From IMG/VR virus record IMGVR_UViG_3300015263_000376, positions 1-25,681 of that record: a DNA stretch of 25,681 bases, one strand, 5' to 3'. Below are positions 10,985 through 25,681 of the stretch, in pieces (positions within the stretch are counted from its first letter, which is position 1; every line of letters begins with the position of its first letter). Position numbers and translations under genes: made by a program. Source of the DNA: a virus. The notes beneath the pieces were generated by a model that worked only from the letters and a program-made list of their open reading frames with translations, was not told the origin of the DNA and did not search any database.

Positions 10985-13261
10985 ACGACTAATCCATTAC
11001 GAGGGACCGATGTTCCTATCGAAGATCATGTAACTCACATGGCCGAACGAATCGCCGAACTTGAGCGAGTCGTTACGATGATCGGATACCACTCGAAAGC
11101 TTCTAAGAAAAGAAGATTCAAGAGCAAGAAGCAAGCCTCTGTATATTGGGGTTTCAACCGTGCTTTCTGCGTAGAAACTGTGGACCCATGGAAGCAGAAT
11201 CGGGTTCGTTTCTATCATCCGATGCTTCATGATCCCGAGACAAAACTGCTCGACCTTCCATTTGCCAATGCTGTATCGGCCATGGGAGGCTTCGATGATT
11301 GTGGGCTGAACTGGGTTCCTCCTGCTGGTTCGACCATCGTGCTGTTTTTCGAGGGTGGACACCGTGATGCTCCCTTCTATATGGGAACAGTCTGGCACAG
11401 ACACCGTGGACCGGGCGGCGGCAAGCACCCATTCCCGAGCCGTGAATGGGATAGCGTCTACCGTGGGCACCGAAAGGGTTACTTCTTGGGGCCGGGTGGC
11501 GATCCCAACAGTGAAGATCAGGTTCTTCCACCATGGAACACCGAGAGCTACAACGGCTATGACATCGATGACATTCGGGAATTCACAGAAGATCCTCAAG
11601 AACAACGACGAGTGACCTACCCGAACATCTATGGCTTCAAGACTCCTGAGAAGCACATGTTCAAGATGGTCGATGGAAACGCCAAGTGTAATCGCAGATG
11701 GAAGCGTCTGGAGATTCAATCGGGCTGTGGCAACTACATGGTCTTCAAAGACGATCACCTTCATTATGGGGGTCAGTGGGCACATCCTTCGTGTCCTCCA
11801 ACACCGGGTGGCGCAGGACTTGATGTTTGCTCGATCCACAATGACGGCAATCCGGGGCCATTCTTTACAGACTTTCACGGAAAGCCCATTGAAGGCAAAG
11901 CATTGTGCGAACCCGGATGTGCCAATCCAGAAGGTGTCCAGTGTAGCAAGATCTTGGGCGGACACAGCAGTACGCCCGGTTTGCCGCCTGACAATCCAAC
12001 CAAATATCACGAAGTACAATCGGGTGCCAACAAGTTCTTCAAACACGAAAACGAATGTCGCCCAGTTAAAGGGCCGGGCACGCCTCAGAACAACAAGTTG
12101 GATTTGCCACAATCTGGCATCCAGTTCTTGTCGATCAGCGGTCACACGATGGTTATGGACGATTCGGTCGAAGAGCCCAAGGGTATTCCAGAGTGGGAGC
12201 GATCCACCAAAGCTTTTGACTTCGGATGTAATGACAAGTATCTCGGCGTCTTCTATATGAAGTCGGCCACCGGCCACTCCTTCACCATGAGCGATGTGGA
12301 AGAATTGAGCCAACTTCGAGGCAAAGACAACTACGTCGAATTGAAGTCGGCCAGTGGAAACAAGATTCAACTGAACGATCATACGATTGGTGCCCCGGAT
12401 TGCCCCGGCTGCCCACCGAATATCGCAGGTGAGGAGCGTGGCATTCATCTGGAGAGCACAAGCACGCACAGAATCAAGATGATCGACCATCTTAATGAAC
12501 AGTGTGCTCCTTGCCGCAAAGAGGGCGGAACTCCAACACCAAAGGCTACCAGAGCTTACATCCAGATCAGATCGGGATACGGTCTGGAGATGCGATACAA
12601 CGACGACTTCTCACAGCAGGAGACCCAGCAGCAGTGGATACAAATTTTGCATCCACAGTGCGTGGACCCGAACACAGATGTTTATTGTAACTCCTGCGAG
12701 AGTGCGGAGTGTCGTGGGCCTCACTTCCTGAGATTCCAAGGGCGACCCAAGGGAACTCCGGGCGTGGTGTTCTTGCGAGCGGGCGGACATGCGATCCGGC
12801 AGACTTATGATATGGATATCGTTCTGGTGGGCGACAAGGAAAAGAACCCATCAGACAAGTTTACTTATGTTTCCAAGAAGTTCATCACTTCTGCGGAAGA
12901 CATTCACTTCAGGTATTCTGGAGAACTACACATCTTCTTTGCGGAGAAACAGATTCTCCTGATGGCTGGTCGAGACTGTCCACCGCCAGAAGATGATCCG
13001 ACCGGATGTAAGGGTCCGTGCCTATATAACGTAATCGTGGCTCGTTGCCCAGTCATCTGTCCTCTCACTGGTATCCTACACTGGACCGAGAAGGCAGCCA
13101 GCGAGCGTGTGTTTGCTTCGGCATACCATCCATGTCAGGTGCCTTGCGGCGGCGGCGATTGCGGCAGTTATTTTGCTCGAATGGCAGCAGCGGGCGATCC
13201 GCCAGAGTGTCTGGAGCAGAATAGCGGTTTCGGAATTGACACAGGAGCAGGGACAATCTAA
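10982..13261 (+). CDS. Baseplate central spike with OB-fold domain (gp5/VgrG-like), cysteine-rich, no lysozyme domain
   Basis: The 759-residue product has a short N-terminal helix (AERIAELERVVTMIG). It is followed by an OB-fold domain (about 55-140) with the recognisable elements RVRFYHP, FANAVSAMGGFDDCGLNWVP, PAGSTIVLFFEGGH and APFYMGTVWHR. The C-terminal region carries irregular repeats of the gp5/VgrG beta-prism type: SISGHTMVMDD, SATGHSFTMSD, SASGNKIQLND, STSTHRIKMID. T4 gp5 has a lysozyme domain between these parts; none is visible here. About 28 cysteines occur, many in C-x-x-C or C-x-x-x-C pairs (CPGC, CAPC, CNSCESAEC, CQVPCGGGDC), suggesting metal binding or a reinforced needle. The stop overlaps the next ATG. 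Confidence 0.87.
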   Translation: MTTNPLRGTDVPIEDHVTHMAERIAELERVVTMIGYHSKASKKRRFKSKKQASVYWGFNRAFCVETVDPWKQNRVRFYHPMLHDPETKLLDLPFANAVSAMGGFDDCGLNWVPPAGSTIVLFFEGGHRDAPFYMGTVWHRHRGPGGGKHPFPSREWDSVYRGHRKGYFLGPGGDPNSEDQVLPPWNTESYNGYDIDDIREFTEDPQEQRRVTYPNIYGFKTPEKHMFKMVDGNAKCNRRWKRLEIQSGCGNYMVFKDDHLHYGGQWAHPSCPPTPGGAGLDVCSIHNDGNPGPFFTDFHGKPIEGKALCEPGCANPEGVQCSKILGGHSSTPGLPPDNPTKYHEVQSGANKFFKHENECRPVKGPGTPQNNKLDLPQSGIQFLSISGHTMVMDDSVEEPKGIPEWERSTKAFDFGCNDKYLGVFYMKSATGHSFTMSDVEELSQLRGKDNYVELKSASGNKIQLNDHTIGAPDCPGCPPNIAGEERGIHLESTSTHRIKMIDHLNEQCAPCRKEGGTPTPKATRAYIQIRSGYGLEMRYNDDFSQQETQQQWIQILHPQCVDPNTDVYCNSCESAECRGPHFLRFQGRPKGTPGVVFLRAGGHAIRQTYDMDIVLVGDKEKNPSDKFTYVSKKFITSAEDIHFRYSGELHIFFAEKQILLMAGRDCPPPEDDPTGCKGPCLYNVIVARCPVICPLTGILHWTEKAASERVFASAYHPCQVPCGGGDCGSYFARMAAAGDPPECLEQNSGFGIDTGAGTI

Positions 13262-13692
13262 TGGCAAAAGCAAAGTTTCTAGGACTGCAATACCCGTTGG
13301 TTAAGACGCCCAGAGGCATCTTAGCCCAGAAAAGCGGCGTCGATCAGATCAAGGCGGATTTGTTGCAATTGCTTCTGACGAACCCCGGCGAACGTGTCAT
13401 GTTGCCCACATATGGAACGCCTTTACGGGAATTGTTCTTCGAACAGAATGACAGATCACTGGAGTTACAGGCCAGAAATATGATCGCCAGTGCTATTTTG
13501 AGATGGGAGCCCCGAATTGTCGTTCAGAACATCACTGTTCAAGCCGGGTTGGACAGAAACGACAGCCGATTACACCCAGATGATTCTCAGGACGAAGTTG
13601 AGAGCATCTTAATGATCAGCATTGAGTTTGTGGACCCAGAAAACATTTCGGAAGTTGAAGAACTTGTTCTTCAAGTCCCTGTACAGAGGTAA
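13261..13692 (+). CDS. 25: gp25-like baseplate wedge protein
   Basis: The 143-residue protein is of typical size for the GPW/gp25 family. The core motif NPGERVMLPTYGTPLRELFF at residues 41-60 matches the family signature (P-G-E-R, P-x-x-G, L-x-x-L-F-F). It is followed by the helix with ELQARNMIASAILRWEPRIV and the strands at the end. In T4 and other contractile systems gp25 is part of the wedge core bundle and initiates sheath assembly by mimicking a sheath handle. It starts in a TAATG overlap with the spike gene and ends in a TAATG overlap with the gp6-like gene, so hub, spike and wedge are translationally linked. Confidence 0.93.
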   Translation: MAKAKFLGLQYPLVKTPRGILAQKSGVDQIKADLLQLLLTNPGERVMLPTYGTPLRELFFEQNDRSLELQARNMIASAILRWEPRIVVQNITVQAGLDRNDSRLHPDDSQDEVESILMISIEFVDPENISEVEELVLQVPVQR

Positions 13693-15251
13693 TGATGGCT
13701 TACAAGAACTGCCCTTTCGAGGTAACACCTTACGACACATCCAACTTGGTCAAAACGCCAAACTTGGTCAGTCTGAACTACACCAACCAAGACTTTTGGT
13801 CGATGAAGGCACGTCTGATCGATTTCATCAAGGAAAAATTCGCTGAGCAGTTCAACGACTTTGTGGAATCAGACTTGGCGATCATGTTGATTGAGAACTG
13901 GGCATTCGTCGCAGACACTCTTTCCTTCAAGATCGATCAGATCGCCAACGAGATCTTCATCGACACTGTGACTGAGGTGGACAATGCCTTTCGTTTGGCG
14001 ATGTTGGTTGGATTCCGACCAACACCTCCAATTGGGGCACGCTCGCTATGGTCGGCCACCATCACGAATGTTTTGGAAACCGACATGGTGATCGACGCAC
14101 CAGTTTCGATTCCCATCACAACAGAAGAAGGCCCCAAAACGATTGAGTTGTTCCCCGCCGATGCAGACAACAATCCAATTTTTGGACAGTCCATCATCAT
14201 CCCTGCGGGCAGCTTCTTGAATACTGGTGTCGTTGGTGTGGAAGGCGAAACGAGAGTTCAAGTCCAGATTGCCACTGGTGAAATCAACCAGTCGGTCGCA
14301 TTGAGCTTCGGCCCAGTGATCCAGAAATCAATACGAGTCAAAGTGGATGGCGTGGAGTGGACCCAAGTTCCTTATTTCACAGACTCGCAACCTCGTCGAG
14401 AATTCCGAGTTGAATACGACCCCAACTACAACGCCTTTGTGATGTTCGGCAACAGCCGGGCGGGAATGATCCCGTCTTCTGGTTCTAACATTCAGATCAC
14501 CTATCGGGTCGGCGGCGGCGTTTCTGGGAACATCGTGACCGGATCTGTAGAAATTCAGAGAAACTACATTGTGCCGGGATTCGACTTCCGTGTCCCAGTA
14601 ACCTTCAGAAATTACACCAGAGGTGAGTTCGGTTACGCTGGCGACACAATTGATGACATCAAACGTAAATTGCCGCCATGGCTCAGAACACAAAACCGTG
14701 CTGTGACGGGCGACGACTATGAAACGCTGGCAGATCAATTTGTGACGGAGTTCAATGGGCAGATTGGGAAATCCAAAGCGGCCCTGAGAAATTACGGCTG
14801 TGCCGCTAATTTAATTGATCTCTACATCCTATCCTTGGATGGCGAAGATGGCCTGCAAGAAGCCACCGATGGCTTGAAGAATGAACTGGCTGATGAATTG
14901 GATTCCAAGAAGATGATCACAGATACCGTCTGCATCAGAGACGGCATCATCATCGAGACCGATGTGTCTATCGACTGTGTTCTCGACAAGTTCTATCGAA
15001 AGTTCGAGGACGAGATCGAGATCAGAATCCTCAGAAGAATGAACTCGTTCTTCTCTTTGAACAACTGGGATTATGGGAAGCCGTTGCGATCCATTGATCT
15101 CGTCAAAGAATTGTCTGATATCAAGGAAGTTCGGACCTTTGAAATCAATTTCATCACGGATGATCCTGACAACTCGGGCGAACTGGTAACGACTAAGTTC
15201 AACGAGATCATCAGACCGGGAACACTAGAAATCAATTTTGTGTATGAGTAA
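13692..15251 (+). CDS. 6: gp6/J-like baseplate wedge protein
   Basis: This 519-residue protein follows gp25, as in T4-like and P2-like baseplate operons. The N-terminal part contains FVESDLAIMLIENWAFVADT, then ANEIFIDTVTEVDNAFRLAM and LVGFRPTPPIGA, the conserved helical region of baseplate J/gp6 proteins. The middle is beta-rich with GNSRAGMIPSSGSNIQITYR. The later signature RAVTGDDYETLADQF is the well-known R-A-V-T-x-x-D-Y motif of the family. In the particle it forms the inner wedge ring with gp25 and gp7. The start may be 13692 or the adjacent ATG at 13695; the former overlaps the gp25 stop. It is shorter than T4 gp6 (660 residues) and larger than P2 gpJ. Confidence 0.92.
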   Translation: MMAYKNCPFEVTPYDTSNLVKTPNLVSLNYTNQDFWSMKARLIDFIKEKFAEQFNDFVESDLAIMLIENWAFVADTLSFKIDQIANEIFIDTVTEVDNAFRLAMLVGFRPTPPIGARSLWSATITNVLETDMVIDAPVSIPITTEEGPKTIELFPADADNNPIFGQSIIIPAGSFLNTGVVGVEGETRVQVQIATGEINQSVALSFGPVIQKSIRVKVDGVEWTQVPYFTDSQPRREFRVEYDPNYNAFVMFGNSRAGMIPSSGSNIQITYRVGGGVSGNIVTGSVEIQRNYIVPGFDFRVPVTFRNYTRGEFGYAGDTIDDIKRKLPPWLRTQNRAVTGDDYETLADQFVTEFNGQIGKSKAALRNYGCAANLIDLYILSLDGEDGLQEATDGLKNELADELDSKKMITDTVCIRDGIIIETDVSIDCVLDKFYRKFEDEIEIRILRRMNSFFSLNNWDYGKPLRSIDLVKELSDIKEVRTFEINFITDDPDNSGELVTTKFNEIIRPGTLEINFVYE

Positions 15252-18200
15252 TGGCACTTAAGAAGATAACCGAAAATCCGAAGATCACCGACACCATCCT
15301 TTTCGAGATCGAAACGCCCGATGGGGATGATTGTTTTGTAAGTGATCCATACAAAGTAGACAGTGTAATCGTGTATTACATTGAACGGGATTTTCTCGGC
15401 ACGAACTTCGGCGATTACGATGTCCTCGTTCAAGACGCCGATCTGGTGGCTGCTGTAGAAGCAGCTAAGGCTGCTGTGTGTGCCGATCCCAGCGAGGCGA
15501 ATCTTCAAGAACTCACGGAAGCCGTCAACAAGCTTGAATCATCGCAACAAAAGAACACCTACTACTACAAAGATCGAGTGGCGGTAGAAGTCTTTGGGAA
15601 TTCCAGTTTCCCAGCGTGGCTATCCACAGACACCGACAACTCCCCCATGGTCAAGGTGGAAGAGGATGAAGACGGTAATCCTTTGTATGGTCATTTCACT
15701 TTAGAGTGGATGCCGCAAGGAAAGGTCAGAGAAGGCGACTACATCGTCTGTTGGACTTGGACCCCATTGGCAGCAGGCGAGAAACTTTCGGCCCACACGC
15801 CGTTCTCGATCAGCGGCGACCCAAAAGCTGTCACCACGATCCCAACGCACATTACGCCAGACGGCAAGTACGACACATTGTTGGAACGCTATCTCCCCGA
15901 AATGTACAAGGCGGTTTTGTGTGAGGGAGACCTGACCCCCGAAACAACTTTGAGGTTCAACCGAGCCGTGGCGGAAGGGTTCACATTCATCGAAGATTTT
16001 GCGAATCAGATCATCGACTTGTTCGATGCCAATGCTTTGCACGAATCGCTGTTGATGTATCTGTCGAATTTGTTCCACCTGAAGTTGAAGTCCGACGATC
16101 CGACATTGTGGCGGCGTCAAATCAAAGAGGCCGTGCCATTGTTCAAAAAGAAAGGCACGCTCTCAGGTCTACAGGACGCTTTCGCACAAGCTGGGATGAC
16201 TCTCGACAAATACACACAGTTTTGGCAACTGGTGTCTCCTTACACATGGCAAGAGTCGTTCAAGGTTGAAGGGTCGGCAATGTGGATCTTGGAGAAGGAC
16301 AACATTGTTCTTCCCATCAATACTACAAATTTTGGACTGTGGCTTCGACGAGCGGGCACCGATACCTACACGCCGCTAACAGCAGACTATGTTGATTTCC
16401 AGATCGAAGAGGATTCCTGTCAAGTCAAGATGATCTGGATTGGCGACGAACTCTCTGTGAACCCGGTGGTTTTGAACACGGGGGATTTTGTCAGAGTTCT
16501 CTACGAATACAACGATGTGCCGGATGTTTCTGCTCAGACTCTTGAGGAGTACATTCGAAACTTACCATTGGCCGATCTGCGTGACGAGGCCGATCAGGAT
16601 TATCCGCCGAAAAACTGGAATGTACGAGTTATTGATGAAGAAGACCCGCTCTTCGACATTCTGATTCCTGTGCGCCATCCGTTCCATGATGCACTGATTT
16701 TTGGATACATCCGAACGGAGTTTCCATACGGCGAAAACATCTACAACATGGAAGAGTACAACGGCAGCACTCGACCTGCCTTCGAAGCGTGCTTCATTGA
16801 CAAAGATTTCATTGATCCATGTGGGTCGTGTCTCGGATCGAAGTACAGCGTCGATGTCAGTGTGGAGGCCCTGTCGAATGACCGGATGATTGAGTCACAG
16901 GACATTCTCCGGGAATACATGCCGTTTCATGCCCAGTTGCACTCAATTAACTTCACTGGCGATGTGGTGGAATTTGTCACATCTCCGGTGGAAGACATCG
17001 ATTTGTTGATCACGATTGACCGTACAGAAAACCATCTTTCGGGACAAGCAAATCCGTTCTTCCATAGGGTAATGGAGGGCGGATTGGCAGAATGGATCAT
17101 CGACAGAGAAGACCTGACAACTAAGACAACGGTGCTCTCTGGAAAATTGGGAACCGGCTATAACAGCAACATCATCGTGATTTCCCCAGATGTGATTCTT
17201 GAAGACTTAGGAGTCTACCCACTCGGACAACATATCTTTGAAGTTCTGAGTCCTTCCGCAAATGCGGGAAACTATAAGATCAAAGACATCTCGGGCCATA
17301 TCGCCGTGGTAAGTTCTGCCGTCACAGAACCATTGGACGAAAGCCAATTCACGTTCAGACTGTCGAACATCACTTACGAAAGCCCGAACCCAGTTTCGAT
17401 TCTTCAGGCTGACAAGTTCATATTCACAGATGACAGCCAAAGCTTTTCGGAGATCGGTGTCAAGGGAACGTGGGATGTGAACAATGTGCCCGATTACACG
17501 GGCGGTGCTTGGGAAGTGTCAATTCCGTCATTGTCGGCAACGCCATATGTGGTTGAAAACGTCATTGGCGATCAATTGATTCTTACAGATGATGGATCGC
17601 TCCCAGTCTCAGGAACATTTACTTACACACTGTATGATGATTCGTCAAACGCAGTCCTGAGCAGCACCACTGGAGCTTTGGCGAGCGAGAAGCGGGGGTT
17701 AGTAGATCTGAATGACCCCAACATCATCAATCGAGACGAAATCTTCCAAATCGGCGACTTCTTATACTACGACGGAACCGAGTATGAGATCATTGAGTTT
17801 ACTGGCACCGACAGTTTCTACATTTACGGATGGGTAGATGGAGATGTGGCCGGGGCCGACGTAGAGACTCGACGCCGTTTGGTGAAAAGTTCTGTGGGCC
17901 AGTTTGGTTACAGAGGTTTGGAACTGATCACATTCTCTGATCATGAGGCTGAGTTCGGCATTGTCAACGGCGAAAACCCGCCGAGCATCATCACCGACAA
18001 CAACCTTTTCAAAGAGAACTTCATGTTCTTAATCAACAACCAATTCTTCCGCATCCTTGAGTGGGACGGGGTGAATGTCAAATTGGCAGGCCGAGAACAA
18101 TCATGGACCACACTGACAGCGGGCGGCACCGTCCTTGCTTACAGTCTGGTGCAATTTACAAAGAATCAAGTGAACGTCCAATTCATTGTGTTCGATCACC

Positions 18201-18382
18201 TAGATAGAGATGGGCACGACCCCATCATTCGCACCATCGAAGACCTTACGGATATGAATCAGGCGATTGTCGCACTTTCGTCTGGCCCGTCCAGCGGTGT
18301 GCAAGAGCAGGTGGGACAAGACGAAAGCATCTCTTTCGTGATTGAGACAAGCAGCGGACAGATTGAAGAAGGTGAGATATGA
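15251..18382 (+). CDS. gp7/gpI-like baseplate wedge protein with long beta-rich extension
   Basis: At 1043 residues this is the second-longest product. The N-terminal 100 residues look like an Ig-type domain (TILFEIETPDGDD, YYIERDFLGTNFGDY) interrupted by an alanine-rich helix (AAVEAAKAAV). Residues about 205-330 fit the P2 gpI tail protein fold: LLERYLPEMYKAV, FANQIIDLFDANAL, MYLSNLFHLKL, WRRQIKEAVPLFKKKGTLSG. That domain is present in T4 gp7 and completes the wedge core with gp25 and gp6. Residues about 330-620 contain loop and beta segments, and about 630-1043 are mostly beta with no recognised family, perhaps peripheral domains that hold fibres. It starts in TAATG and ends in ATGA overlaps. 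Confidence 0.82.
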   Translation: MALKKITENPKITDTILFEIETPDGDDCFVSDPYKVDSVIVYYIERDFLGTNFGDYDVLVQDADLVAAVEAAKAAVCADPSEANLQELTEAVNKLESSQQKNTYYYKDRVAVEVFGNSSFPAWLSTDTDNSPMVKVEEDEDGNPLYGHFTLEWMPQGKVREGDYIVCWTWTPLAAGEKLSAHTPFSISGDPKAVTTIPTHITPDGKYDTLLERYLPEMYKAVLCEGDLTPETTLRFNRAVAEGFTFIEDFANQIIDLFDANALHESLLMYLSNLFHLKLKSDDPTLWRRQIKEAVPLFKKKGTLSGLQDAFAQAGMTLDKYTQFWQLVSPYTWQESFKVEGSAMWILEKDNIVLPINTTNFGLWLRRAGTDTYTPLTADYVDFQIEEDSCQVKMIWIGDELSVNPVVLNTGDFVRVLYEYNDVPDVSAQTLEEYIRNLPLADLRDEADQDYPPKNWNVRVIDEEDPLFDILIPVRHPFHDALIFGYIRTEFPYGENIYNMEEYNGSTRPAFEACFIDKDFIDPCGSCLGSKYSVDVSVEALSNDRMIESQDILREYMPFHAQLHSINFTGDVVEFVTSPVEDIDLLITIDRTENHLSGQANPFFHRVMEGGLAEWIIDREDLTTKTTVLSGKLGTGYNSNIIVISPDVILEDLGVYPLGQHIFEVLSPSANAGNYKIKDISGHIAVVSSAVTEPLDESQFTFRLSNITYESPNPVSILQADKFIFTDDSQSFSEIGVKGTWDVNNVPDYTGGAWEVSIPSLSATPYVVENVIGDQLILTDDGSLPVSGTFTYTLYDDSSNAVLSSTTGALASEKRGLVDLNDPNIINRDEIFQIGDFLYYDGTEYEIIEFTGTDSFYIYGWVDGDVAGADVETRRRLVKSSVGQFGYRGLELITFSDHEAEFGIVNGENPPSIITDNNLFKENFMFLINNQFFRILEWDGVNVKLAGREQSWTTLTAGGTVLAYSLVQFTKNQVNVQFIVFDHLDRDGHDPIIRTIEDLTDMNQAIVALSSGPSSGVQEQVGQDESISFVIETSSGQIEEGEI

Positions 18383-18852
18383 TCCAAGAACAACTCCAGA
18401 CAAGGGGTGATGTCGAAATTATCGCAGAATGGAAGGATGGTAGGAAAGAACTGTTAGATGTTCGGAACACAATTCTTCTGACTGGCCGACGTGCTCTGGC
18501 ACTGGGTCTGGCGAATGCCATTGGTGACGCCTTCGAGTTCTATATCACTCGAATGTTGTTCGGCGATGGCGGCACCAGCGGTGGCGAAAAGCGTTTCGTG
18601 AATGCGAACCGAGATGGTTTGTTCGGTGTGGTAAAGGTGTCGAAGCCTGTCCTATCGAACATTGACAACTCGATTCCCACTCAGGTCATTCTGACATCTG
18701 TATTGGCCTATGATGAGGCTGTGGGCATTACTCTGAATGAGATGGCCCTCCAGATGGCAAACGGTGATTTGTACAGCATGACGACATTTCCTGACTTGAA
18801 CAAAACAGAAGACATGCAGATTACGTTCAACTGGCGGTTGAACTTCATCTAA
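18379..18852 (+). CDS. Small baseplate- or fibre-associated protein, unknown function
   Basis: The 157-residue protein overlaps the stop of the gp7-like gene (ATGA, 18379-18382). It contains an early helix with N-x-I-L-L-T-G-R-R-A-L-A-L-G-L and then FYITRMLFGDGGTSGG, where N-x-I, G-R, L-A and G-D-G-G are the pattern of a small tail protein found downstream of wedge genes in various myoviruses (recollection). The C-terminal half is beta-rich and ends in DMQITFNWRLNFI, typical for an end strand of a virion beta domain. Coupling to the wedge operon and its being the last gene before a promoter-like gap suggest a distal baseplate or fibre-network component. Confidence 0.75.
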   Translation: MIQEQLQTRGDVEIIAEWKDGRKELLDVRNTILLTGRRALALGLANAIGDAFEFYITRMLFGDGGTSGGEKRFVNANRDGLFGVVKVSKPVLSNIDNSIPTQVILTSVLAYDEAVGITLNEMALQMANGDLYSMTTFPDLNKTEDMQITFNWRLNFI

Positions 18853-18913: not shown

Positions 18914-19693
18914 ATGCCACGCATTGAATTGATTGATCCAGTATATTACGCTCCCAACGATCCGATCCATTGGGAGATCGACAATCTGCCCTTAAAGAAC
19001 ATCATCCGTCGCCAAGAACTCATCAATTTGGCTTTGGATGGGGCTTTGGAGCAGATGCGGGATGCCATCGGCACACAGGGATCTTTCGCCAACCGCCTCA
19101 ACCAGTCTCTCAATGCTGACGGTAGCCTTAAAACAACCGCCATTGATGAAGCCCTTCATAGCATTGAAGAGCACCAAGACACAGACAACTATGTTCGAAT
19201 GACCAAAGATCAATCGGACAAACTGGATCTTATCGCCAGCGAAGCTACAGATTTGGCCTTGCATATTTCAGCAGATGGCAGTAGTTTTATAACATTCGAT
19301 GGCGGGGTCGTGAAGCTTGTTCCTTCAGACACAGTTACGCCCAGCATTGATGCACCAAACATCTTAAAGCTGCATTTGGCGTTTCCGGCTTCGGCGGCAC
19401 ATCAGCATTTCTACAGCCTTACGCCTGTGGATGTTGACACACTCGATCCTGATTACATCAATTACAAAGTAAACTCGGTCTCGTCTCCCTACATTGACGG
19501 GTCTCTCCGAGTTTTCATCAACGGAGTGAGAATCTTCGAAGATGATGCCGTCTATGTTCCGGGCAATCTGGTAGACGACCCTTGGACGCTCCTTTCCTAT
19601 ACGTCCGACGCCACCAGCGGAACATTCGCTTTGTCACAAGCGATCTCAAGCGACGACATCATCAAAATTGATTTCGATATCTCCTTCGTGTAA
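18914..19693 (+). CDS. Short tail-fibre or baseplate-periphery protein
   Basis: The 259-residue protein starts MPRIELIDPVYYAPNDPIHW and continues EIDNLPLKNIIRRQELINLA, an N-terminal docking pattern (D-P, W-E-I-D-N-L-P-L, R-x-x-L-I-N) of a kind seen in phage fibre and baseplate-edge proteins. Residues about 60-120 are helical linker. The C-terminal 90 residues contain YIDGSLRVFINGVRIFEDD, then TSGTFALSQAISSDDIIKID, the beta-sandwich pattern (S-L-R-V-F-x-N-G-x-R, F-x-L, D-x-I-x-I-D-F) common at the ends of phage fibres. The AGAGG site is at 18901-18905, and the candidate late promoter is just upstream. Role in receptor contact is inferred. Confidence 0.75.
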   Translation: MPRIELIDPVYYAPNDPIHWEIDNLPLKNIIRRQELINLALDGALEQMRDAIGTQGSFANRLNQSLNADGSLKTTAIDEALHSIEEHQDTDNYVRMTKDQSDKLDLIASEATDLALHISADGSSFITFDGGVVKLVPSDTVTPSIDAPNILKLHLAFPASAAHQHFYSLTPVDVDTLDPDYINYKVNSVSSPYIDGSLRVFINGVRIFEDDAVYVPGNLVDDPWTLLSYTSDATSGTFALSQAISSDDIIKIDFDISFV

Positions 19694-19706
19694 AGCGAGG
19701 AAAAAC

Positions 19707-20246
19707 ATGGAAGTCGATCTAGGCTTCATCATCTTATGTCCCGACAGGAACATAGGAGGATTGAAGAATACTTACGGTTCCATCAACTACCACTCATACA
19801 ACAGGGATGCTATATGCGTGGTCGGCAATGATGCGACACCAACAGACATCAAAGAAATGAAGGAGATTTGCCCGACCTACAAGGGCAAGGATACCATCAC
19901 CAGCCTCATAAACACAGGGTTCCGCCATCTTAAACATGAATGGGGTCTCCTGCTGTTCGGCGGAAGCCGAATCCCTATCTTCTTAGAAAGAAGAATATCC
20001 TCTTTTACCAAGAATGAAGAAGACATCTTATTCCCAGTCGTAGAAAAGAGATACGACTTTGTAAGCGGCTCGTTCAACGGCGTCTTAATCAATAAGAAGT
20101 TCTTCAAGAAAGTTGGCAACTTCCCTGACACACAGATGGAAAAGGCCGGAATGAATGACTTCGAAATGGCAAAGTTGTTATGGGCTCTTGACGCACACGA
20201 AAAAGGTGCTATATTTAAGGGAATTGTCGGAATGAGAATCATCTAG
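19707..20246 (+). CDS. Small glycosyltransferase-fold (GT-A-like) protein, probably conserved phage accessory
   Basis: The 179-residue product from ATG 19707 (site GCGAGGA) begins with a beta strand and turn LGFIILCPDRNIGGLKNTYG. This is followed by AICVVGNDATPTD, a helix, then INTGFRHLKHEWGLLLFGGS and later NGVLINKKFFKKVGNFPD and NDFEMAKLLWALDAHEKG. That order resembles the nucleotide-sugar domain of family 2 glycosyltransferases: beta strand, N-x-G helix, W-x-L-L-hydrophobic strand, and an F-x-x-V-G-x-F/L-x-D motif near the acceptor site. The expected D-x-D after the WGLLLF strand is replaced by GGS, so activity is doubtful. It is shorter than typical enzymes (about 250 or more). Similar proteins occur, to my recollection, in T4-like marine phages. 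It is more A/T-rich than its left neighbour and encodes many K and I. Confidence 0.68.
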   Translation: MEVDLGFIILCPDRNIGGLKNTYGSINYHSYNRDAICVVGNDATPTDIKEMKEICPTYKGKDTITSLINTGFRHLKHEWGLLLFGGSRIPIFLERRISSFTKNEEDILFPVVEKRYDFVSGSFNGVLINKKFFKKVGNFPDTQMEKAGMNDFEMAKLLWALDAHEKGAIFKGIVGMRII

Positions 20247-20257
20247 GAGGGCAGTTG
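20245..20257 (+). promoter_or_regulatory. AGGAGG ribosome binding site with TTG start
   Basis: A full AGGAGG at 20245-20250 overlaps the TAG stop of the preceding gene and precedes TTG at 20255-20257 by four bases. No ATG near the start is in frame. The strong site supports TTG initiation. Confidence 0.7.
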
Positions 20258-20776
20258 CCAGAAGTACGCAACTGGGTTGTTCACATCAAGGACGTTGAGA
20301 CCGGGCACCACATCATAGAACCAGTGGTAGCATCTAAGATTCAGGTCTCATATGAACAATGGTCGCAGGAAATATCCACTCTGAGGGGCGACGTATTTCA
20401 AGTCGCCGGGCCACGCACTGGCTCGATCAGGATGGAATTCGACCTCTTCAACGACAACTACAGGATGTTCACGGCGTTGTGGGATAATGCTCCACAGCGA
20501 GCAGACATTCAAGTTAATCCGAGGGACAACGATCAGAATAATGGCTACAGCCGATGTGTTCTTAGATCGATGAACTTCGACCCCGCACCTGCCCCAGACT
20601 GGAACGATGTACTCGTTCTGGAGTGGGTCTTCATGAACGCAGAAGCTCAAATCAACGTACCCAGAGAACTCCAAAGTGACTATGTGTCACCTTGGCAACA
20701 TGCAATGGGACGACTTGGCCGAAGAAGACGAATTGAACCAGTACAAAAATTGGACTGGCGAGTATCAGGCTTTTGA
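20255..20776 (+). CDS. Beta-rich tail-associated protein, possibly tube-like fold
   Basis: The 173-residue product starts at TTG with a perfect AGGAGG site. It begins MPEVRNWVVHIKDVETGHHI and contains YEQWSQEISTLRGDVF, then GPRTGSIRMEFDLFNDNYRM and LVLEWVFMNAEAQINVP. Alternating polar and hydrophobic strands and a long W-containing last strand suggest a beta-barrel or tube-like domain, as in small tail proteins. The C-terminal 25 residues are basic (GRLGRRRRIEP). Its stop at 20774-20776 lies inside the convergent reverse-strand gene. No specific family is recognised; a tail terminator, tube or fibre-base role is possible from context only. Confidence 0.7.
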   Translation: MPEVRNWVVHIKDVETGHHIIEPVVASKIQVSYEQWSQEISTLRGDVFQVAGPRTGSIRMEFDLFNDNYRMFTALWDNAPQRADIQVNPRDNDQNNGYSRCVLRSMNFDPAPAPDWNDVLVLEWVFMNAEAQINVPRELQSDYVSPWQHAMGRLGRRRRIEPVQKLDWRVSGF

Positions 20777-21364
20777 TCTTCGCCGTTCGATGTCCTTCCG
20801 CACAAGCACCCACTCATCACTCAAAGGTTTCTGGCCCGAGTTCAAGGCGACCAATTCGGCCACAACATCCTCGACACTTTGATAGACGTTTGATTGCTTG
20901 ATGGCTTCTTCTGGGTCGTCTGTCTCGATCTTATCGATGACATCGAAGAGCCAGCGTGGAAGGTTATAGAGAGAATTCTCACAGATGAAGAAGTTCGGCT
21001 TGTGCTGGCCTTCTCCCAGATAGACCTCGTTCCCGGTTCCCCACTGAGGCACACGAGGATCGACGACTGTGACGAGAAAGTCTGAAATGTCCACGAATCG
21101 CAGATCGTACCTTCGGTACTCGTGAACGTACTCCTGAAGCTCCCTGAAACGTCCATCACGCTGAAGTTGTTCTTGAACGGCTTTGTTCTCGCCGATCTTG
21201 ATGTCCTCGCCACCGGGTTTGTCTGTGGGATCAATCAAGTCGATATCAAGACCCGCTTCACGGATCAACTTAATGAACTTACGCCGCCATTCTACGCCGT
21301 GGTCGGCCACGAATTCCATTGGGCCGCTCAAATAACCACAGGCACCATCAAGCTTTCCTGACAT
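20765..21364 (-). CDS. Nucleoside 2-deoxyribosyltransferase-like protein
   Basis: This 199-residue reverse-strand protein begins at ATG 21364-21362, with GGAGGA just upstream on its strand. The N-terminal strand and loop YLSGPMEF (residues 11-18), followed by WRRKFIKLIREAGLDIDLID and P46, is the classic start of this fold. Residues 86-115 give YDLRFVDISDFLVTVVDPR, then WGTGNEVYLG and HKPNFFI, matching the D-x-x-x-x-x-x-D ... G-T-x-x-E-x-x-x-G/A pattern; E113 aligns with the expected catalytic glutamate. Family enzymes cleave or exchange the N-glycosidic bond of deoxynucleosides, and relatives act on nucleotides such as dNMPs. It may modify nucleotide pools or signals, but substrate is unknown. 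It is the only complete reverse-strand gene seen. Confidence 0.72.
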   Translation of the reverse strand: MSGKLDGACGYLSGPMEFVADHGVEWRRKFIKLIREAGLDIDLIDPTDKPGGEDIKIGENKAVQEQLQRDGRFRELQEYVHEYRRYDLRFVDISDFLVTVVDPRVPQWGTGNEVYLGEGQHKPNFFICENSLYNLPRWLFDVIDKIETDDPEEAIKQSNVYQSVEDVVAELVALNSGQKPLSDEWVLVRKDIERRRSKA

Positions 21365-21417: not shown

Positions 21418-22143
21418 ATGTCAACAGAAGTAAATGCCGAACTGCAAGAACTCATCGTCAAGGCCGACGAAATCTTAAAGAATGCAGATCTCCCAGATCG
21501 CCATTCATTCTTTCAGATCGAAAAATTCATCATTGGCAAGGAACCCACAGTTCACGCCCAATTGTGGCAGATTGTACGGGAAATCCAAGCAAGAGTCGAG
21601 ACCTTCGATTCCTTACAGAAGCAACTGGAGGACGCCGAGGATAATCTGGAACTGATGGATATCCAGATCCAGAAAATGGCCCGAGAAGTCCGCTTGCTTT
21701 CTGAAAGGGCAGAAATCATGACGGACCTAGAAATCCAAGAGCGAGAGATAAATATCAGAAAGCTCGAACGTGAGAAAAAGGCTCTCATCCGATCTGCCAA
21801 GAAGGTGCGGCACAAGTTTAAGTCGCTATTGGAAGAATTGTCCTTCCTAGTGGTGGGATATGAGAAGATCGTCGCCAACAACGGCGACCTAAAGCCATTC
21901 GATGACGATCAGGCTCAAAGAGAGATGTGGAATGAGAAACTCTTGGAAGAATTCAATCTGAGAGTGATCTTGCAACGGCCTCTCGACCCCGAATTTGTGA
22001 AAACGGTTCTATGTTTGGGTGACGAGGCTCCGGTTAAGCAGCACGTCACAAAGATGATTGATCAAGTTCAGAGAAAGATGATCGAGCAAAAGAAGCAGAT
22101 AGAACAACACGTTGAAACCAAGGTGAAGCAGAGGGGAGAGTAA
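21418..22143 (+). CDS. Coiled-coil protein of unknown function
   Basis: The 241-residue protein starts at ATG 21418 with GAGGTGA four bases upstream. An upstream in-frame start at 21319 would add 33 residues that read as the reverse-strand neighbour's shadow, so it is not used. From residue about 60 to 160 it is a continuous charged helix with heptad-like leucine, isoleucine and valine (SLQKQLEDAEDNLELMDIQI, then LEIQEREINIRKLEREKKAL). The last 40 residues form another K/Q/E-rich helix (VQRKMIEQKKQIEQHVETKV). It resembles rod or scaffolding proteins rather than an enzyme. The stop overlaps the next ATG (TAATG), so it is coupled to the PKD fibre gene and may be a fibre stalk partner or assembly chaperone. 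Confidence 0.75.
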   Translation: MSTEVNAELQELIVKADEILKNADLPDRHSFFQIEKFIIGKEPTVHAQLWQIVREIQARVETFDSLQKQLEDAEDNLELMDIQIQKMAREVRLLSERAEIMTDLEIQEREINIRKLEREKKALIRSAKKVRHKFKSLLEELSFLVVGYEKIVANNGDLKPFDDDQAQREMWNEKLLEEFNLRVILQRPLDPEFVKTVLCLGDEAPVKQHVTKMIDQVQRKMIEQKKQIEQHVETKVKQRGE

Positions 22144-23168
22144 TGGCAGAACGCATTTCAAGTCTGGATGTCGGATATCAGGCGGGAGACCTTTCTTTGT
22201 TTCCAGTCGCACTGGATGACAAAGAGACCCTTTATGAAGCAACCAACAACGCCAGCACCACCTTGAAGCAAACTCTGGCATTCAACAGCAAAGCCATTAT
22301 CGTCGAAGACACTTCTGGGTTCCCCGACAATGGACAACTACGAATTGGCCCGCCTCCCGGAGTTCCCGGTGAGTATGAACTCGTCGCTTATGGTAAGAGA
22401 ACAGCCAACACGTTCCAACAACTACAACGAGGTTTCAAGGGTTCCAGAATCAACCAGTGGCCTGCACGCAAAACTTGGATTTCGAATGCTGTGGCCTCCG
22501 AGCACCACAATGCCATCAAAGATGCCATCATCAACCTTGAGGTCGATCTGGGGCTCAAGAAAGATCCAGATCCAGAATCACTGAATGGTATCCTTAAGGC
22601 TCAAGAGGTTCGATTCCTAGCACCGAAGCCGCTGTTTCGGGCTTACCCGATCAAAGGTCCGCCGCCCTTACAGGTGAGATTCCAGAACTTTACTACCGGC
22701 CACATTGCTCGATTCCTTTGGGATTTTGGCGATGGCGGCACGTCACTCGAACGCAGCCCGATTCACACATATCTCACAGAGGGCGTTTATACGGTGAAAC
22801 TCAATGTGGTAACAACCACAGGAGCACAGGGAATTGCAACGAAAATCGAATACATAGTTGTAGATGCCGACGAGGCATTGCCCTTCTTCTATGTGGATTC
22901 CGTGGACAATCCATACTCAGTGCAAACAGCCACAGCCCTGAGCGAAAGTCCCAAAGAGTTTCGCTTCATCGATCAATCAGATGGCGACATCGTTCAGCGT
23001 AACTGGATTTTTGGAGATGGCGACACCTACACAGAAGAAGACCCGGATGTTCATGAAATCACCCACATCTACCAAGAGCCGGGTGAGTACGTTGTGACAG
23101 AATTGATTCAGTTCAGCACAGGAAGATTGAAACGGGTGGAACTCCCAGAACCGTTAGTTGTATTGTAA
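22143..23168 (+). CDS. PKD-domain fibre/adhesin-like protein
   Basis: The 341-residue protein begins with a beta-rich N-terminal domain (1-110; LFPVALDDKETLYEATN, IIVEDTSGFPDNGQLRIG, GEYELVAYG). A short helical linker with ASEHHNAIKDAIINLE (about 118-135) follows, and then two PKD-type immunoglobulin-like domains. The first has FLWDFGDGGTSLE and HTYLTEGVYTVKLNV near residue 190; the second has NWIFGDGDTYTEED and HIYQEPGEYVVTELI near residue 287. The W-x-F-G-D-G and G-x-Y-x-V-x-L signatures are the family hallmarks. The H-H-N-x-I-K/R-D linker is frequent in phage fibre proteins. PKD domains mediate protein or polysaccharide contact, so a receptor-binding or fibre-shaft role is likely. Confidence 0.82.
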   Translation: MAERISSLDVGYQAGDLSLFPVALDDKETLYEATNNASTTLKQTLAFNSKAIIVEDTSGFPDNGQLRIGPPPGVPGEYELVAYGKRTANTFQQLQRGFKGSRINQWPARKTWISNAVASEHHNAIKDAIINLEVDLGLKKDPDPESLNGILKAQEVRFLAPKPLFRAYPIKGPPPLQVRFQNFTTGHIARFLWDFGDGGTSLERSPIHTYLTEGVYTVKLNVVTTTGAQGIATKIEYIVVDADEALPFFYVDSVDNPYSVQTATALSESPKEFRFIDQSDGDIVQRNWIFGDGDTYTEEDPDVHEITHIYQEPGEYVVTELIQFSTGRLKRVELPEPLVVL

Positions 23169-23176
23169 GGTAAGAA

Positions 23177-25462
23177 ATGGCAATCCCAACAGCACCACTG
23201 TATCCAGATCAATTCGACAATGATACAAACTTGTATCATGTCCACGACTCCATCAGACTTCGGCTGCGTGAAGATTTCAATCCGGGCGATACTGTCGTCA
23301 AGGCTTTTGGCGATCCCTTTGTCATTGCTCGAATGCCAGAGAGTGGGCGAATCACGCTCACAGAACAATGCAGCGAATTGGATACTCGTGCTGTGTCTTA
23401 CCATTACACCACATTCGACCCACTGAATGTGGAATTCAGCGGACTAACAGTCTTGCCGGGATTCACAGAAATCGCCAAACCCAAGAGTATCACAAACGTC
23501 ACCATCAATGTGATGGCCGACGACCATAACAACATCAAGGATTCGCTGATCGCCATCCAAGAGTTTGCTGGAGTAAAGGGCACAGAAGACAAAGAACCAT
23601 TCGGTGAAACTCTTGAAGGTCGCATCAATTTTCTGCGCCGTCTCGTGTTGCAACCGAAGGCTTGGTTTACCTCAGATATTCGTACAGGCAATGTCCCGCT
23701 CTGTGTTGAGTTCAAAGAGCAGGCATTTCGTCTGGGAACTGATGGAAACACTGGGACAATCAAGTACACTTGGGACTTCGGCGATCAATCTTCGATCATC
23801 TCAGTTTACAGTACCATCAGCGTCTCTGATGCAGTCCCGAACAATAGCGTCGATGTGTTGGTGAGGGACACAGATGGTGGAACCGTTAAGAAGTGCTATT
23901 ACCAGCCGGGCCTTTACACAGTGAAGCTGACTGTGGAGAACGATTTCGGTTCTGATACCGTCGAGTTCCCAGCTTACATCAATGCCAAGGTTAAGGCTCC
24001 AGAGGACGCTATCATTCGTTTCATCGAAAACACCTCGAACCAAGACGCTACGCCGGGCGTGCCTCCGAATGGGCCATTTGAAACTCTGCCAAAGATTCGA
24101 TCTCCAATCAATACACTGATTCAGATTGAAATTCAGGACGGTGAAAACCCTGCTACGCCGGGCCGAAGTTTCGGTGGCGAACCATTGGACGAACTGGGCA
24201 ACGCACTCGATCCAATCACCAATTACACATGGGAGTTGGGCGACGACCTTCTGCATCCAAACTCTCCTCTCACCAAGGCTTCTTACAGTGTTGGTGGAAT
24301 CTATGACTTGAAACTGCGTGTGGATACACAATTCGGTGCTTACAGAATTACCACCTACGAGGATAGCATTGACATCATCGAGAACACAAACCTTTGGTTG
24401 TGGACATTCACGACGGCATCGACTGTGCGAGCCTACGAGTTCGGTCTGATCAGCGAAACATTCAAGTTGACCCCGGCAGCCACACTGACGGTAGATCGCA
24501 ACGACGACTTCTTGGCAAACGCAAACAACTCCGATCAACAGATCACGGAGTTCCTGAGAAACTCTGCTCTGGCCCCGAGAGGCACCTTGTCTTCTGGGCA
24601 GGGCGGCACAACCATGTTGTATTGGGCCAGCGGTAGAAACGAATCAGACCCGGCTGCCAGCGAAGTCATCAATGTTGTTGAGTATGACGGATTCGGTGGT
24701 GTTTACATCAATCGCTCGCCGATCACAAGACAATGGAACTGGGCGCATCTTGCATCGCCAAGCGGCTTCTCGTACTTCATTTTTGGAGACATGCCAACTC
24801 GTGCCCCAAACACTTCGCTCACAAATACAAACAAGCAGACTTTCACGTTGGCGGACTTTACCACCAGCAGCACGGCCTTGTCAGACGGAAACTACCTGAA
24901 TGGGGCCATTGAACTAGAACAAAATCCTGCGGTATTCGATGGTGCAGGCGAATCCATTTATGGACACTTCAGCGTCTACAGAACCGGTTGGAAGGACCAA
25001 ACAGGGTACATCTGTAGAAATGACGGTGTGGGACCGTTCTTCCGAATCAAGAGCTTTTATCGTACAGAAGGGTTGGTTGGAAATCCGTTCGTCAACATTC
25101 GAAAGATGCAAGACATTCAAGGCCCAACGAAGCTGAATGGGGAATTGGTGGATCTTAGCGAGGGCATGTATTTCTTAAGCAACTCTGGCTCCGTCTCGCA
25201 GTTCGATGATCTTGCCGAGGTTTGGTCTACTGGTGGTCCGGGAGCGAACTCGTTGCTGTATCGGTCTCTCCAAGACACTACAGTTGTAGGATTCGATGAT
25301 CCGGCAAATTCAATGAGATTGGCATCAGATGGAGACAAGCGGGCATATCTAAGTTTTGATTACAGCCCGAACGCCTTCGTTAAGTTCAATGAGATCGATC
25401 TGACCTTCAGTTCGTTGATCTCCAGACCCGAAGGCGAGCAGTGGCTCATGGGAGTTTATTGA
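23177..25462 (+). CDS. Large PKD-domain fibre/adhesin-like protein, paralogue of the preceding gene, with possible beta-propeller head
   Basis: The 761-residue protein repeats the previous gene's plan: an N-terminal domain (PLYPDQFDNDTNLYHVHD), a linker with ADDHNNIKDSLIAIQE (about 115-130), then LVLQPKAWFTSD and PKD-like domains. These show YTWDFGDQSS near 196, YYQPGLYTVKLTVEND near 240, and a divergent YTWELGDD plus GGIYDLKLRVD near 350-375. Residues about 405-761 are different: repeated short strands such as YEFGLISETF, GGVYINRSPI, FSYFIFGDMP, YFLSNSGSVSQFDDLAEVW and AYLSFDYSPNAFVKFNEIDL resemble blades of a beta-propeller or kelch-like head. Receptor binding is the likely role (inference). 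The ATG at 23177 follows a weak AAGGTAAG site. Confidence 0.8.
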   Translation: MAIPTAPLYPDQFDNDTNLYHVHDSIRLRLREDFNPGDTVVKAFGDPFVIARMPESGRITLTEQCSELDTRAVSYHYTTFDPLNVEFSGLTVLPGFTEIAKPKSITNVTINVMADDHNNIKDSLIAIQEFAGVKGTEDKEPFGETLEGRINFLRRLVLQPKAWFTSDIRTGNVPLCVEFKEQAFRLGTDGNTGTIKYTWDFGDQSSIISVYSTISVSDAVPNNSVDVLVRDTDGGTVKKCYYQPGLYTVKLTVENDFGSDTVEFPAYINAKVKAPEDAIIRFIENTSNQDATPGVPPNGPFETLPKIRSPINTLIQIEIQDGENPATPGRSFGGEPLDELGNALDPITNYTWELGDDLLHPNSPLTKASYSVGGIYDLKLRVDTQFGAYRITTYEDSIDIIENTNLWLWTFTTASTVRAYEFGLISETFKLTPAATLTVDRNDDFLANANNSDQQITEFLRNSALAPRGTLSSGQGGTTMLYWASGRNESDPAASEVINVVEYDGFGGVYINRSPITRQWNWAHLASPSGFSYFIFGDMPTRAPNTSLTNTNKQTFTLADFTTSSTALSDGNYLNGAIELEQNPAVFDGAGESIYGHFSVYRTGWKDQTGYICRNDGVGPFFRIKSFYRTEGLVGNPFVNIRKMQDIQGPTKLNGELVDLSEGMYFLSNSGSVSQFDDLAEVWSTGGPGANSLLYRSLQDTTVVGFDDPANSMRLASDGDKRAYLSFDYSPNAFVKFNEIDLTFSSLISRPEGEQWLMGVY

Positions 25463-25681
25463 TGACATTTCCTCCAGTACCCACATATCCTGAAGCAATT
25501 GATACAGATCATACGCTGTTCTTGGTCTACAACACGACTGAGACCAAGCTGACCAGTGACAATGCGCCGTGGGCTCAAGAAATCGACATCATGCCGGTTG
25601 CTGCCGATGCCCAAGAGATCTGGGCAGACAACGGTTTTGCCAATCTGAGCGGAGAACTTCTGTACTATGATGCTGTAGCCA
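25462..25681 (+). CDS. Start of a third fibre/adhesin-like gene in the tandem set (cut by the right edge)
   Basis: The ATG at 25462 overlaps the TGA of the preceding gene by one base, and the frame stays open to the window end, giving 73 residues. The beginning MTFPPVPTYPEAIDTDHTLF parallels the neighbours' openings (PTAPLYPDQFDNDTNLY and FPVALDDKETLY). The later IWADNGFANLSGELLYYDAV parallels the first paralogue's FPDNGQLRIG and GEYELVAYG. The same N-terminal docking domain is therefore probably present. The rest of the protein lies outside the window. Confidence 0.7.
   Translation, partial: MTFPPVPTYPEAIDTDHTLFLVYNTTETKLTSDNAPWAQEIDIMPVAADAQEIWADNGFANLSGELLYYDAVA

Follow-up and report, generated by a model that had tools for sequence, protein, structure and literature searches.

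Three adjacent paralogous genes with a common N-terminal module form a fixed trio beside the baseplate genes of a lineage of huge uncultured phages

Phage tail proteins that are paralogous and share their front part are of a known kind. The jumbo phage phiKp24, for instance, is said to carry branched fibres in which several appendage proteins have common attachment parts, and serves here as a general comparison. Other described systems correspond to single parts of the locus analysed below. In the T4-like cyanophages P-HM1, S-H9-2 and S-SSM7, the baseplate wedge initiator gp7, encoded directly after gp25 and gp6, carries near its N-terminus a module that recurs in all three proteins of this locus. 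The kelch propellers of Keap1, and the kelch-like proteins of phages BcepSaruman, CBB and PS119XW, have the fold of the C-terminal region of the second protein. The trio of genes itself, of which no description was found in the literature, differs from fibre sets of the phiKp24 type in having an invariant number of copies and in the conservation of genes 1 and 2 at their distal ends. Its unusual points are the fixed trio and a repeat stretch in gene 3.

The window, meaning the whole stretch of DNA analysed, is 25,681 nucleotides long and corresponds to the 25.7-kb virus record IMGVR_UViG_3300015263_000376 of IMG/VR. The features discussed are the following.

13261..18852, + strand: baseplate genes upstream of the trio, coding for gp25, a gp6/J-like protein, Tail_P2_I and a small protein with weak similarity to a tail-collar fibre (Pfam, PHROGs)
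22143..23168, + strand: gene 1 of the trio, 341 aa, an open reading frame (ORF) with N-module, two-helix linker and two PKD domains
22185..22490, + strand: beta module at the N-terminus of gene 1, roughly residues 15-116 (profile matches to genes 2 and 3; PHROG 2885)
22497..22619, + strand: two-helix linker of gene 1, helices 119-136 and 147-159 (AlphaFold2 model; profile matches)
22620..23165, + strand: PKD pair of gene 1, spanning roughly residues 160-242 and 246-341 (Pfam, model)
23177..25462, + strand: gene 2 of the trio, 761 aa, an ORF with N-module, linker, two PKD domains and a kelch-like propeller
23192..23650, + strand: N-module and two-helix linker of gene 2, helices 115-131 and 146-158 (model, profiles)
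23654..24382, + strand: PKD pair of gene 2; residues 206-233 form an insert of low confidence in the first (Pfam, model)
24383..25459, + strand: kelch-like beta-propeller of gene 2, residues 403-761 (Foldseek on the model)
25462..25681, + strand: gene 3 of the trio, of which the first 73 aa are visible, an ORF running off the end of the window

The trio is nearly gapless and lies on one strand; the start codon of gene 1 begins on the final base of the stop codon of the preceding gene, and the stop of gene 2 is overlapped by the start of gene 3. The contig L001, which is 99.9% identical to the window over 13.5 kb, extends further to the right and contains gene 3 in complete form (L001:13320-15182, 620 aa), with the linker VVAEHHNQLVDAI and the PKD-like sequence FRLDFGDG. 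The array had been expected from the sequence alone to continue rightward; it does pass the edge of the window, but it ends with copy 3.

Ahead of the trio, Pfam and PHROGs identified a run of baseplate genes for an OB-fold spike (Phage_base_V), gp25, a gp6/J-like protein, Tail_P2_I and a small protein; those from gp25 onwards are kept ahead of the trio, in this order, in most relatives. The Tail_P2_I-type protein (15251-18382, + strand) has a C-terminal extension of about 700 residues that gave no Pfam match. Five genes, one of them on the opposite strand, separate the Tail_P2_I gene from the trio. The opposite-strand gene within the tail operon (20765-21364, − strand, 199 aa) is also minus-strand in 33 of 42 relatives, and its product is weakly similar to nucleoside 2-deoxyribosyltransferase (PF05014, E=1e-4, below the curated cut-off). 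The gene at 20255-20776 (+ strand, 173 aa) was detected in one of 42 non-redundant loci, that of the window phage itself, and its neighbours are conserved; either it was inserted recently or it changes very fast. The trio is also flanked by two conserved genes for proteins of 192 aa (19668-20246, + strand) and 285 aa (L001:15191-16048, + strand), neither with a Pfam match. The 192-aa protein appears glycosyltransferase-like by eye, and both are possible modifiers of virion proteins.

The sequence-only reading had proposed that three consecutive genes open with the same kind of domain, and this was confirmed for every pair by profiles built from orthologues. Profile-to-profile comparison of domain 1 gave E=8e-10 (gene 1 versus 2), 6e-8 (1 versus 3) and 1e-4 (2 versus 3), and that of the linker gave 7e-19, 3e-18 and 4e-16 for the same pairs. 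When domain 1 and linker were aligned together by hhalign, the values were 3e-26, 4e-24 and 9e-19, with reversed-profile controls at 2e-3 or worse. Reversed-profile controls over the N-terminal pairs ranged from 2e-4 (one linker pair) to 0.4, and the strongest control with unrelated segments reached 1.5e-3. Since reversed controls reached 2e-4, the match of domain 1 between genes 2 and 3 is by itself suggestive; their relation is carried by the longer alignments and by the match of both to gene 1. Single sequences gave concordant results: the matching helical linker noted between copies 1 and 2 was recovered by BLASTP (E=1e-8) and is present in copy 3 as well, and copy 2 matched the visible part of copy 3 at E=1e-5. 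The similarity extends into the first PKD domain, which aligned between genes 1 and 2 at E=1e-18 and, more weakly, between gene 1 and the PKD-like region of gene 3 at E=2e-7 (profiles). The profile alignment of genes 1 and 2 covers 314 columns.

The order of parts is common to all three proteins: a leader with the pattern YP..D...LY, the beta module, the AEHHN helix, a second helix and the first PKD. Structure prediction led to the same view for the N-termini of the two proteins complete in the window. The AlphaFold2 models of gene 1 (mean pLDDT 82) and gene 2 (mean pLDDT 85) agree in strand order, in a helix of 17-18 residues and in a 13-residue helix ahead of the PKD; prediction was poor for the first 25-35 residues or so and where the linker helix of gene 2 begins. 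The F-L-x4-L-x4-F approach described before as matching between the first two genes did not hold as a literal pattern at the level of single residues; what can be aligned is the second helix followed by A/Q-P-K-x-x-F. The PKD domains had also been described as differing in number and length; the lengths do differ, but the number is two in each according to Pfam. These observations altogether indicate that the three N-termini are homologous beyond chance, and the paralogy of the trio is close to certain.

Exactly three copies were found in all 128 loci that are long enough to tell. The loci fetched were 136, corresponding by hand count to about 112 distinct contigs because some were fetched twice, and the remaining eight end inside the array. 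Searches of 11 whole records of 81-595 kb detected three matches in each, all adjacent and none extra. A profile grown from any of the three N-termini converged on the same 192 domains in 66 contigs, which come as triplets except at contig ends, and a second scan extended this set. Because all loci were recruited through gene 1 or the common module, these counts apply to phages that carry them, and phages lacking gene 1 could be missed. In a tree of 102 N-modules, three clades were formed by gene position, each on one side of a branch with SH-aLRT support of 97-99; the duplications are thus ancient, older than the sampled lineage. The trio therefore consists of three fixed orthologous groups in constant order. 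In seven larger contigs, PKD matches were confined to genes 1 and 2 of the trio.

In some relatives, genes of the trio are separated by insertions of about 650-990 bp; these were considered as possible extra copies and discarded, as none contains the N-module. Several of them resemble by eye ORFs of the homing-endonuclease type. These free-standing ORFs of 210-310 aa, HNH- or LAGLIDADG-like by eye, were seen between genes 1 and 2 in L003, and ORFs of the same kind between genes 2 and 3 in L004, L014, L021, L032 and L034.

Behind the common part, the three proteins differ. Gene 1 terminates after its two PKD domains, detected by Pfam as two stretches. PKD domains (PF00801 / PF18911) are found two apiece in genes 1 and 2, above the Pfam curated cut-off, and in degenerate, sub-threshold form in gene 3; those of gene 2 were detected in 40 of 40 orthologues. 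The distal 360 residues or so of gene 2 fold as a kelch-like propeller, a block with pLDDT mostly above 90, for which the best Foldseek matches were Keap1 kelch domains (TM-score 0.71 by target length, E=6e-10). The confident model thus has a kelch-type propeller fold. Compared with known kelch propellers, that of gene 2 has about 10% sequence identity, lacks the kelch motif among the Pfam matches of 40 orthologues, and is fused behind the putative docking module and two PKD domains. A lectin match (1xd5, E=0.007) was dropped in favour of the propeller. The prediction of paralogues with different distal parts was accordingly borne out, and the propeller had escaped that earlier inspection.

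Gene 3 has one degenerate PKD followed by a proline-rich stretch, and its complete proteins range from 604 to 1496 aa, a more than twofold spread across the lineage. Its middle part varies, chiefly in length and to some extent in identity; close relatives are nearly alike, and the C-terminal end is kept in most relatives. The long forms (L022, L064, L038, L029, L057 and L059) carry tens of units of 10 or 11 residues, the putative shaft being made of dozens of copies of P-S/T-x-I-x-V or P-S-F-x-x-I-S-F. The 10-residue unit is IPT-T-I-x-V-x-D-D; L022 (14522-15912) has about 50 decapeptides of the type DDIPTTIxV with a DNA period of 30, and L064 (13901-17455) has Cys/Phe-rich undecapeptides of the type PSFxxISFCEP. 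No DNA tandem repeat was found in the proline-rich stretch of gene 3 of the window phage. The repeat arrays gave no meaningful PDB match; the hit to 9lc0 ('60 kDa protein') was rejected as compositional, its best stretch having an i-Evalue of 0.05. Searches with narrow repeat patterns returned only the contigs from which the patterns were taken and one contig that starts inside such a repeat. Among 29 gene 3 orthologues, one had a weak match to a family called only 'appendage'.

Outside the lineage, the best match of domain 1 was PHROG 2885, a baseplate wedge family (E=8e-7). Nearly all of the weak tblastn matches of domain 1 fell within structural proteins of T4-like cyanophages, and several of these were in gp7. 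The gp7 matches were weak as single tblastn E-values (0.01-0.6) and better with profiles, the domain 1 HMM locating at residues 92-152 and 67-125 of two gp7 proteins and occurring twice in one protein. The part in common, about 65-90 residues, has the pattern TTL...I.V....FP..G.I.I..E..YY......F....RG. Domain 1 is thus related to the N-terminal module of gp7, and is the sole part that aligns: gp7 is thousands of residues long, and the AEHHN linker, the first PKD and the tandem arrangement of the trio have no match there. As domain 1 resides inside the far larger gp7 and in other virion proteins, it may be a general virion module instead of a baseplate docking part. Neither domain 1 nor the linker belongs to a Pfam family, and a Foldseek search with the gene 1 model, intended to place domain 1, was swamped by PKD and Ig-like proteins. 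The N-module was absent from the 80 PKD-matching GTDB loci listed. A DNA-level search of annotated phages gave no match; in the annotated-phage collection, the one record with the trio is LR756511.1, an uncultured phage of 595 kb that is itself unannotated, in which the three genes are adjacent as in the window, with about 34-42% identity.

What is established for the trio is that its genes are of common origin, are constant in number and order, are constrained in sequence, lie near the baseplate genes and end in distinct distal folds. The reading that we favour, with a probability of roughly 60%, is that the trio codes for specialised appendage or connector proteins, all three of which dock on the baseplate through a common module; in this reading we infer both location and function. 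The N-module would dock each protein on the baseplate or tail tip, at sites that are identical or equivalent. The short linker helix has a hydrophobic spacing compatible with a coiled coil and may be an oligomerisation element, so that each protein would be an oligomeric appendage, with the PKD domains as putative rigid spacers. Gene 1 may provide a short structural or adaptor piece; the propeller of gene 2 may serve as a head for binding, and gene 3 may form an extended shaft, longer or shorter according to the number of short repeats. The trio would cooperate in adsorption or baseplate stabilisation, and would be kept as fixed virion parts rather than swapped host-range cassettes; the presence of exactly three copies in all sufficiently long relatives makes the proteins look like fixed parts, not like changeable fibres. 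A more specific arrangement is possible, if unlikely: the trio might form one hetero-oligomeric baseplate node through its N-modules, with three heads (PKD rod, propeller and repeat shaft) in fixed ratio, the gene 3 shaft being an undescribed fibre fold.

The sequence-only reading had favoured a tandem array of receptor-binding fibres, duplicated and then diversified in the distal parts to shift host range. A common N-terminus with unlike distal ends, the length range of gene 3 and the propeller of gene 2, a fold able to bind ligands, all agree with this proposal. Its first part, duplication of a gene with the attachment part kept, is upheld by the profiles and by the secondary-structure order in the models of genes 1 and 2. 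An open-ended, diversifying array is nevertheless unlikely. Copy number variation was absent from the 128 loci and 11 whole records, and the copies fall into three old orthologous groups. Hypervariability of the distal relative to the attachment part was not observed for genes 1 and 2, in which the distal part and the N-module have similar mean pairwise identity. Median identity to the window phage was 52% for gene 1 and 48% for gene 2, as compared with 52% for gp25 and 59% for J; because genes 1 and 2 are conserved like these baseplate genes, distal host-range diversification is unsupported for them. Even in gene 3, close relatives differ little in length, and the C-terminal end is conserved across most of the relatives. 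The label 'fibre/adhesin' is best kept provisional, as neither complete protein of the window matched a tail fibre family in Pfam or PHROGs and domain 1 has its best outside match in a baseplate wedge family.

It is still less probable that the trio consists of decoration proteins of another virion part, such as neck whiskers, sheath or capsid, that happen to be encoded beside baseplate genes. Phage decoration proteins often contain PKD and Ig-like domains, and domain 1 also matches phrog_4406, a virion structural family filed under head and packaging (E=4e-6); against this stand the lineage-wide position of the genes with the baseplate module and the baseplate wedge family as top match of domain 1. 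That common phage modules (beta module, helix and PKD) were recruited independently, without duplication, is very improbable, for although domain 1 is mobile, one cyanophage gp7 containing it twice, and PKD domains occur widely, the identical order of leader, module, two helices and first PKD in three adjacent genes, the linker matches at E 4e-16 to 7e-19 and the unbroken alignments of 204-314 columns all speak for common descent.

As a marker of a widespread lineage of huge uncultured phages, with contigs up to 595 kb, the trio can be used as an annotation anchor for the poorly annotated tail region of this lineage. The short repeats of gene 3, an unusual and variable stretch, merit a structure. 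Taken as three specialised proteins docked by one module, the trio would be a clean case of a docking module reused three times and thereafter fixed, whereas duplicated fibre genes are usually seen as parts that change fast and set host range.
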